This document shows positions 41,185-43,517 of a stretch of 64,000 bases of DNA, one piece after another (the stretch's first letter is position 1; each line of letters opens with the position of its first letter). The position numbers and the translations under genes were made by a program. Below the pieces are notes generated by a model. It was not told the origin of the DNA, did no database searches, and saw only the letters and a list, made by a program, of their open reading frames with translations. The DNA comes from Posidoniimonas polymericola. Its GTDB lineage: Bacteria > Planctomycetota > Planctomycetia > Pirellulales > Lacipirellulaceae. The stretch is taken from positions 1-64,000 of the forward strand of contig NZ_SJPO01000004.1 of assembly GCF_007859935.1 (NCBI RefSeq), in the 5' to 3' direction.

Positions 41185-41742
41185 ATGGCCAAGAACGAAG
41201 AACAAGCGAACTCCAAGGGCGGCCTGATGGGGATCATCAAGGCGCTCGCGATCCTCTCGGTGCTGGTCATCGTGCAGGTGGTCGCGGCGTCGTTTGTGAT
41301 CCCCACGCCCGAGGCGACCGAGAAGCTGGCCCGCGACCTGGCCTCCGCCAAGTCGGGCGAGGAGTCGGACGAGCTGGCCGAGGCGAGCTACACCGAGGAC
41401 AGCGCCGGCCCCCCCGAGCAGGAGGTGGTCGAGATCCTGATCGACGGGTTCAGCATCACGCGTTACAACATGGAGGCCGACAAGACGGTCAACATCGACC
41501 TGGAGGTCTACGCGACCGTGCTGGCGGAAGAGCAGGACGAGTTCAACGAGATCTACAAGACCAACAAGAACCGCGTCCGCGAGCAGATCAACCTCACGAT
41601 CCAGGCGGCCGAGCCGTCCGAGCTGTCGGACGGCGGGCTGGGGTTGATCAAACGCCGCATTTTAGAGAGAACCAACCGCGCGCTGGGCAAGCCGCTGGTG
41701 CGCGAGGTCTTCCTCACGCGGTTTAACTTCGTTCAGCGGTAG
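41185..41742 (+). CDS. fliL: Flagellar basal-body protein FliL
   Basis: A 185-residue single-helix protein (helix at about residues 15-37, [18 protein letters not shown]). The periplasmic domain has [12 protein letters not shown] and ends with [16 protein letters not shown], as in FliL, which forms a ring around the stator. It follows motB after 24 nt. The next gene is fliN-like; the usual fliM is not between them. Confidence 0.9.
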
Positions 41743-41785: not shown

Positions 41786-42409
41786 ATGGCCGACGACCAA
41801 ATCAATCAGGACGAGATCGAGGCCCTGCTCAAGCAGGCGCAGGGCGGCGCGGCCGAACCGCCCGCCCCCAAGGCCCCGGATCCACCGCCGCCGGCCGGCG
41901 ACATCTCGCTCGACCAGAGTGAGATCGAGCGGCTGATCTCGCAGGCGCCCACCTCCGAGGCGCCCCCGCAGAAGTTCACCCCGCCCGCCGCGGCAGGCTC
42001 CCCGCCGTCCACCACATCGATGGCGAGCGACGTCGAGGTGCTGCTCAGCAAGGCCGAAGAGGCGATCGCGTCGATCGACCAACCGGCCGGCGAACTGCCC
42101 GCGGGCATGAAGCCGTTCGCCCTGGACGACCTTGGCGGCACGCCCGCCTCGACCGAGGCCGCCACGCTCGAGCTGGTCCGCGACGTCCAGCTCGACCTCA
42201 AGATCGAGCTCGGCCGCACCCACATGCACCTCGAGGACGTGCTGCGGCTGAAGAGCGGCGCCGTGGTGCCGCTCGACAAGCTAGCAGGCGACCCGGTCGA
42301 CGTGCTGGTCAACGGCCGGCTGATCGCCCGCGGCGAGGTGCTGGTGCTCAACGACAACTTCTGCGTGCGTGTTACAGAGCTCGTGGTAGGCGACAGCGCA
42401 GTCGCGTAG
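41786..42409 (+). CDS. fliN: FliN-type switch protein with FliM-like N-terminal motifs
   Basis: A 207-residue C-ring protein. The C-terminal SpoA (FliN) domain is at about 125-205, with [38 protein letters not shown] and [13 protein letters not shown]. The N-terminal 120 residues are unusual. They carry [10 protein letters not shown] (6-15) and [10 protein letters not shown] (42-51), both resembling the LSQxEIDxLL motif by which FliM and FliY bind phosphorylated CheY. A third weaker copy is DVEVLLSKA (82-90). Pro-rich linkers separate them. There is no FliM middle domain and no CheC-like phosphatase domain, so this is neither FliM nor FliY. Confidence 0.88.
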
Positions 42410-42524: not shown

Positions 42525-43517
42525 ATGGCCGCTACCCGTGTGTTGCTGACCGCCTTGGCGATCGCGTCGGCCGCCGTTGCGCCCGCCCAATCGACCAGCG
42601 CCCCGTCGACCAACAACTCTACGGAACCCGCCCGCAACCCGTTCCGGGCGTACGGCCCGGTCGGCCTCCCCAGCCCCGTCCGCCAGGCCTCGTTTGAGGA
42701 ACCGATCGTGGGCGACAGAACGCCGGCTGCCCTGCCCGCCGAGCCGCCGCTGCCGCTGCCAACCGACGATCCTGTCGAAGCGCGCCCGGCAGAACACCCG
42801 CTCACGCCCGTGGTCGACGACGCGGCCCCCGCCCTGCCCTCCTCGGCCGAGCCGAGCGAGGCCGAGCAAGCCCGGTCGCCCGTCCCGCCGCCGCTTGCAC
42901 TCGACACCGCTTCGGTTGGCCAGACGGCCGTGAGCACGCCGTTGTCCCCGCCGCCGGCCTCGGCAGCGGCCGACAACAGCTTCCGCCGCCTGGCGCCCCC
43001 GACTCCGAGCACTCAGGCGCCCACCGCGGGCGAGCGTCCCCGGCTGCTCGGCTTCGACTGGAACGACCTGCCGGTCGAGCCGGCGACCTCCGCCGCGGCC
43101 CTCGGCCTGGTGGTCGGGCTGTTCCTGCTCACCGCGGCGGTCTTCAAACGCGCGGCCCCCAAGTCACAACGCCTGCTGCCGGGCGAGGTCGGCAGCCTGC
43201 TCGGCCGGATTTCGTTGGGCGGCAAGCAGTCGGCCCACCTGCTCAAGGTCGGCTCGAAACTCGTGCTCGTGCACATCACGCCCGACGGCGCCAAGCCGCT
43301 GACCGAGGTCACCGACCCGGCCGAGGTGAACCGCCTGTTGGGCCTGTGCGAGCAGGGCGGCGAGCACAGCGCGTCGACCGCGTTCGCCGACGTGTTCGAG
43401 AAGCTCGCCGCCGAGCCGGCCACGCCGGGCTTCCTCGGCGCCGAGTCGTCACTGGTCAACCGCCAAGAGCTGGCGGCCGCCTATGCCAACACGCCGGGAG
43501 GCCGCGGTGGACGCTAG
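42525..43517 (+). CDS. fliO: FliO-like flagellar assembly protein
   Basis: A 330-residue protein with a signal-peptide-like start (residues 1-20), a long disordered Pro/Ala/Thr region (about 20-170), one membrane helix (about 185-206) and a small cytoplasmic beta domain. That domain has [35 protein letters not shown] and [16 protein letters not shown], the FliO pattern. FliO helps build the FliPQR gate. It is longer than usual because of the disordered stretch. It overlaps the start of fliP. Confidence 0.82.

Follow-up and report, generated by a model that had tools for sequence, protein, structure and literature searches.

Tandem FliM-type motifs in the N-terminal tail of a planctomycete FliN point to probable multivalent CheY-P docking beside a normal FliM

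We analysed a window of 64,000 nucleotides, the whole stretch of Posidoniimonas polymericola contig NZ_SJPO01000004.1 examined here, in which a flagellar cluster runs in the order motA-motB-'fliL'-fliN-fliO-fliP-fliQ-fliR-flhB (Table 1). The 207-aa fliN product scores 101.1 bits against the TIGR02480 (fliN) model, above the cut-off of 84.05, and carries a single C-terminal SpoA domain. Its nearest solved proteins, by both sequence and fold, are Salmonella and Thermotoga FliN, with FliN structures as the best Foldseek matches. Its gene also sits among flagellar export and motor genes, with motAB upstream and fliOPQR-flhB downstream. The PF01052 match and the TIGR02480 score bear out an earlier sequence-only reading, which had placed a SpoA-domain FliN gene after fliL and had seen in it neither a FliM middle domain nor a CheC-like domain. 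Pfam likewise found no FliM middle domain (PF02154) in the protein, which is therefore not a FliM, and no CheC-like domain, residues 16-129 consisting of linkers and short helices. We rejected an identity as FliY because no CheC-like phosphatase domain lies between motif and SpoA. No fliM was found in the motA-to-flhB cluster of the window. The gene at 41185-41742 is called 'fliL' only from its position and membrane-anchor-like start. At the other side, fliP in its longest ORF begins 35 bases before fliO ends (overlap 43483-43517), and the true fliP start may lie downstream.

Table 1. Features at the fliN locus, in window coordinates
Feature	Position	Strand	Details
Gene at fliL position, directly upstream of fliN	41185..41742	+	unmatched by Pfam FliL
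fliN, SpoA-domain FliN with long N-terminal extension	41786..42409	+	207 aa
FliM-type motif 1	41801..41830	+	residues 6-15; PSSM score 20.0
FliM-type motif 2	41909..41938	+	residues 42-51; PSSM score 15.8
Conserved helix upstream of SpoA	42020..42076	+	residues 79-97; distinct element
SpoA / FliMN_C domain	42173..42385	+	residues 130-200; PF01052 E 1.6e-24
fliO, directly downstream of fliN	42525..43517	+	PF04347 E 1.6e-06

The same reading had reported two FliM-like motifs at the N-terminus and a weaker third copy. Both motifs are present; they follow the LxQxEIDxLL consensus of EIDALL-type docking peptides and lie towards the end of a flexible tail. Using a PSSM trained on 40 distinct FliM motifs, with a copy called at a score of at least 12, we obtained 20.0 and 15.8 for the two, against 14.5-31.4 for FliM motifs. 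AlphaFold predicts helices at motif 1 (residues 8-20, pLDDT about 85) and motif 2 (residues 44-52, pLDDT about 78), and a further one at residues 79-97 (pLDDT about 84); the helix blocks reach 78-85, whereas the linkers between them are of low confidence (pLDDT 47-58). At the DNA level, the two motifs lie in a 39-nt direct repeat that is 72% alike. The supposed third copy did not stand: residues 79-97 form a helix of their own that exceeds the two motifs in length and conservation, with the signature (D)(I/V)ExLLxxAExAL in 67 of 70 FliN proteins of the order Pirellulales, and this conservation together with the AlphaFold model led us to reclassify it as a distinct element.

The motifs are not explained by chance in a Pro/Ala-rich linker, an explanation that we rejected on PSSM counts: 97 copies were called in 73 FliN N-termini of the order, compared with a mean of 0.05 in composition-preserving shuffles of each N-terminus. 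Genome-wide, the pattern Qx[DE][IV][DE]xL[LIVMF] has 19 matches (8 for a reversed-pattern control), and only three of these, two in FliN and one in FliM, are close to the N-terminus of a protein of the flagellum or of chemotaxis.

Across 70 Pirellulales genomes, 59 encode a FliN with at least one motif and 47 one with at least two. Two copies is the commonest state (36 genomes), followed by one (12), none (11), three (10) and four (1); a few of the zeros are truncated by contig ends or have a start codon placed too far downstream, and these were dropped or corrected in the 68-genome tally used below. Compared with a same-genus relative (G311), the motif segments are 92% identical, each at 11 of 12 residues, the linkers 41% and 35%, the pre-SpoA helix 89% and SpoA 100%. 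In one relative (L163), a 90-nt unit of motif plus linker is duplicated head to tail with 86% DNA identity, and the duplication looks recent; taken with the 39-nt repeat in the window, it indicates that motif copies can arise by tandem duplication. Two copies are found in FliN of Botrimarina hoheduenensis Pla111 and two to three in that of a Gimesia MAG, while Rhodopirellula europaea FliN has no N-terminal copies and retains the SpoA-proximal helix only. Phycisphaerae MAGs, L281 and L315 among them, have arrays of about 4-5 motifs, in the form [LF]SQADIDAAL or FDQSDIDALM, and the L260 protein has five. With L287, these make up a set of Phycisphaerae and one Planctomycetaceae MAG with arrays of about 3-5 motifs. 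To judge from these sequences, tandem motif growth in FliN may also have taken place outside Pirellulales. The motifs are thus conserved across the order and more widely in Planctomycetota.

A single, canonical FliM is encoded on another contig (C8; PF02154, E 2.9e-63). It begins MGDVLSQAEVENLLSSL and carries its own motif, LSQAEVENLL (LSQAEVENLLSSL). Its gene (L233:4745-6367, minus strand) is isolated from other flagellar genes, its neighbours being a cstA-like carbon-starvation gene and a proA-like gene. The sequence-only reading was thus right that the operon lacks fliM and wrong that FliM is missing, and we rejected its absence from the genome. Of the two observations that this reading had named as refuting it, a normal FliM with a CheY site does exist elsewhere, but a lack of conservation of the FliN motifs was not seen. 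FliM was detected in 90 and FliN in 92 of 117 genomes of the order. None of the FliN loci of the order that were examined with about 2.5 kb upstream (L125-L166) contained a FliM match, so the fliM-fliN split appears general in the order. All 49 order FliM proteins examined have the motif and none has a second copy.

Besides FliM and FliN, the genome encodes one more SpoA protein, about 300 aa long (L002:697-1635, minus strand; contig C2:745-957), whose relatives (L326-L345) are conserved across Pirellulales. Its N-domain of about 165 aa has the signature PDPTGESKLATLAQELGMLLLP, matched no Pfam family and no PDB structure, and aligned with the FliM middle domain at an hhalign probability of 2%. 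It is possibly an additional, FliY-like C-ring component.

The likely partners of such motifs are also encoded. A stand-alone CheY (contig C4) is 46% identical to E. coli CheY, matches CheY structures in the PDB at E 6e-30 and, by alignment, retains most residues of the alpha4-beta5-alpha5 face, which binds FliM (PMC11528121). CheA, CheW, MCP, CheB and CheR are grouped on contig C11. The cheA frame (L231:8497-11337, minus strand) encodes a single product of 946 aa that matches the CheW domain twice and also contains a CheY-like receiver domain. FlhF and a MinD-like FlhG, the latter with the DQAxxLR activator motif as DQAVALR, are encoded between flhA and fliA on contig C19.

If CheY is the ligand, the FliN motifs should decay where chemotaxis is absent; if FlhG is, they should stay where FlhF and FlhG stay. 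We searched for CheW across the order and took it as a proxy for chemotaxis, bearing in mind that a genome without CheW does not necessarily lack CheY and that the comparison was devised after the copy numbers had been seen. FliN carries on average 1.93 motifs in CheW-positive genomes (n=54) and 1.14 in CheW-negative ones (n=14; Mann-Whitney p=0.0008; p=0.028 on genus means). Permutation within families over the 68 genomes gave only marginal support (p=0.063 for copies and 0.046 for summed score). In PGLS along a FliM tree, which covers 47 genomes with 11 CheW-negative ones among them, CheW is associated with 1.02 more copies (p=0.00013) and 21.9 more score units (p<0.0001). The effect survives the removal of each of the seven families tested, holds within the organism's own family alone (p=0.002) and stands against a threshold-Brownian null (p=0.0007); three CheW-negative genomes with 2, 2 and 0 motifs lie outside this tree, which makes the results from all 68 genomes the more cautious ones. 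All 11 CheW-positive genomes of the own family have two or three motifs, and its four CheW-negative genomes have 0, 0, 1 and 2 (weakened). There are exceptions in both directions, with good motifs in CheW-negative G209, G218 and G242 and none in CheW-positive G207 and G309. N-terminal length in relation to CheW was left out of the evidence, some start codons in the set lying too far downstream.

The reading that we favour, and consider probable from this comparative evidence, is that the FliN tails would act as multivalent docking sites for CheY-P, supplementing a normal FliM. Since the FliN copies stand beside such a FliM and thin out where chemotaxis genes are missing, the base of the rotor probably has many additional tails that catch the signal. 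The earlier suggestion that FliN receives CheY at several sites thus keeps its core, in that several conserved motifs track the chemotaxis genes; the part in which FliN replaces FliM gives way to one in which it is added to it. In the proposed mechanism, a disordered N-terminal tail of FliN would have been lengthened by tandem repeats of a CheY-docking helix of the FliM type, and CheY-P would be caught by the FliN tails as well as by that of FliM. On the EIDALL motif of FliM or FliY, CheY-P binding is a two-step capture (PMC9126983). The stoichiometry is known only from the Salmonella ring, whose composition of FliM34:FliN102 gives three FliN per FliM (PMC11087270); at this usual ratio, two motifs per FliN would provide six extra docking sites per protomer beside the one of FliM. 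Docking on FliN may raise the CheY-P concentration at the C-ring, from where CheY-P could hop to its acting site on FliM/FliG, and the number of motifs might be tuned through tandem duplication and loss. The ligand CheY-P, the ratio of FliN to FliM in this organism and the consequence for switching are all inferred. When CheY is bound to the Salmonella ring, it touches the FliM tail helix, the FliM middle domain and FliG, and makes no contact with FliN (PMC11528121). That absence counts against docking on FliN, although Salmonella FliN is not known to carry EIDALL-type motifs.

The main rival is that the FliN motifs dock not CheY but FlhG. When the C-ring is assembled, this MinD-like ATPase loads FliM/FliN(Y) onto FliG. 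FlhG binds the N-terminal 36 residues of FliY in Bacillus and Geobacillus (PMC12327844) and, in monotrichous species, the N-terminus of FliM (PMC12826062), and the genome has the FlhF and DQAVALR-bearing FlhG described above. Moreover, the FliM motif is kept in all 11 CheW-negative genomes of the tree, as a second FliM ligand such as FlhG would lead one to expect. It is on average weaker there, however (p=0.002 when phylogeny is taken into account, 0.04 when it is not), which favours CheY. Most CheW-negative genomes retain FlhF, including all four of the own family (G220, G264, G282, G299), and there the FliN motifs drop without chemotaxis genes all the same; nor does a loading chaperone need multiple copies per tail. 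We therefore regard FlhG as an unlikely ligand of the FliN motifs.

A division of labour, in which FlhG would use the tail in assembly and CheY-P in signalling, appears still less probable. Motif 1 (IGQDEIE[EKR]LL) is slightly off the FliM consensus and could serve one ligand and motif 2 the other; both ligands are published for this class of motif (PMC12826062, PMC9126983), and the two signatures differ in several genera (for example, MGQDEIEELL and LDQNDIEALF). The data, however, contain no functional split of the two motifs, which were lost together in G282 and G299. That the motifs are structural helices, packing in the base of the C-ring like the FliN alpha1 swap known in Salmonella (PMC11528121) or binding the export apparatus, with their likeness to FliM arising by convergence, strikes us as very unlikely. 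Such a role fits the nearly invariant helix at 79-97 well, which adjoins SpoA, but motifs 1 and 2 bear the full FliM-type signature, and copies that vary from 0 to 5 and track chemotaxis genes are more dispensable than a structural contact should be. The strong form of the earlier suggestion, in which the organism has no FliM and FliN receives CheY in its place, draws on the absence of fliM from the operon and is almost certainly wrong given the canonical, motif-bearing FliM here and the motif in all 49 FliM proteins of the order that were examined.

Multivalent CheY-P docking by FliN would have partial precedents. The tail shares with the EIDALL docking segment of FliM the ten-residue consensus and an amphipathic helix that starts the disordered tail of a C-ring protein; it differs in having one to five copies per tail, where FliM has one, and in lacking the FliM middle domain. 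FliY of Bacillus and Thermotoga likewise combines SpoA with an EIDALL motif at the N-terminus and is a partner of FliM; FliN here differs in its tandem motifs, in the missing CheC-like phosphatase domain and in being separate from the genome's third SpoA protein. FliN proteins that have a single EIDAL motif, either full or degenerate, have been noted as sporadic among 12 bacteria (spirochetes, Firmicutes, Epsilon- and Gammaproteobacteria; PMC6946799). They, too, carry the motif outside FliM and FliY, whereas here the copies are in tandem, conserved across the order and variable with chemotaxis genes, in a phylum, Planctomycetota, outside that sample. For E. coli, PMC7355467 and PMC11087270 cite Sarkar et al. 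2010 for FliN as a second site of contact with CheY-P; the proposed site is a hydrophobic patch on the SpoA surface, unlike the linear tail motifs described here. In the open-access literature we found no report of tandem EIDAL motifs in FliN, of planctomycete FliN tails or of a link between such motifs and chemotaxis genes.

Standard ultrasensitive switching models count one CheY docking tail per FliM in each motor. A broader and more tentative proposal is that in Planctomycetota FliN, not FliM, supplies most CheY-P docking: with 2-5 motifs on each tail and FliN outnumbering FliM three to one, the C-ring might form a multivalent reservoir whose capacity evolves by repeat gain and loss, tuning switch sensitivity. 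These observations suggest a division of labour within the C-ring unlike that of model motors. The natural variation between 0 and 5 docking motifs per FliN, with fewer where chemotaxis genes are missing, would offer a direct test of the part that tail number plays in switch sensitivity, and tail number could thereby be separated, as a determinant of that sensitivity, from the acting site on FliM/FliG.
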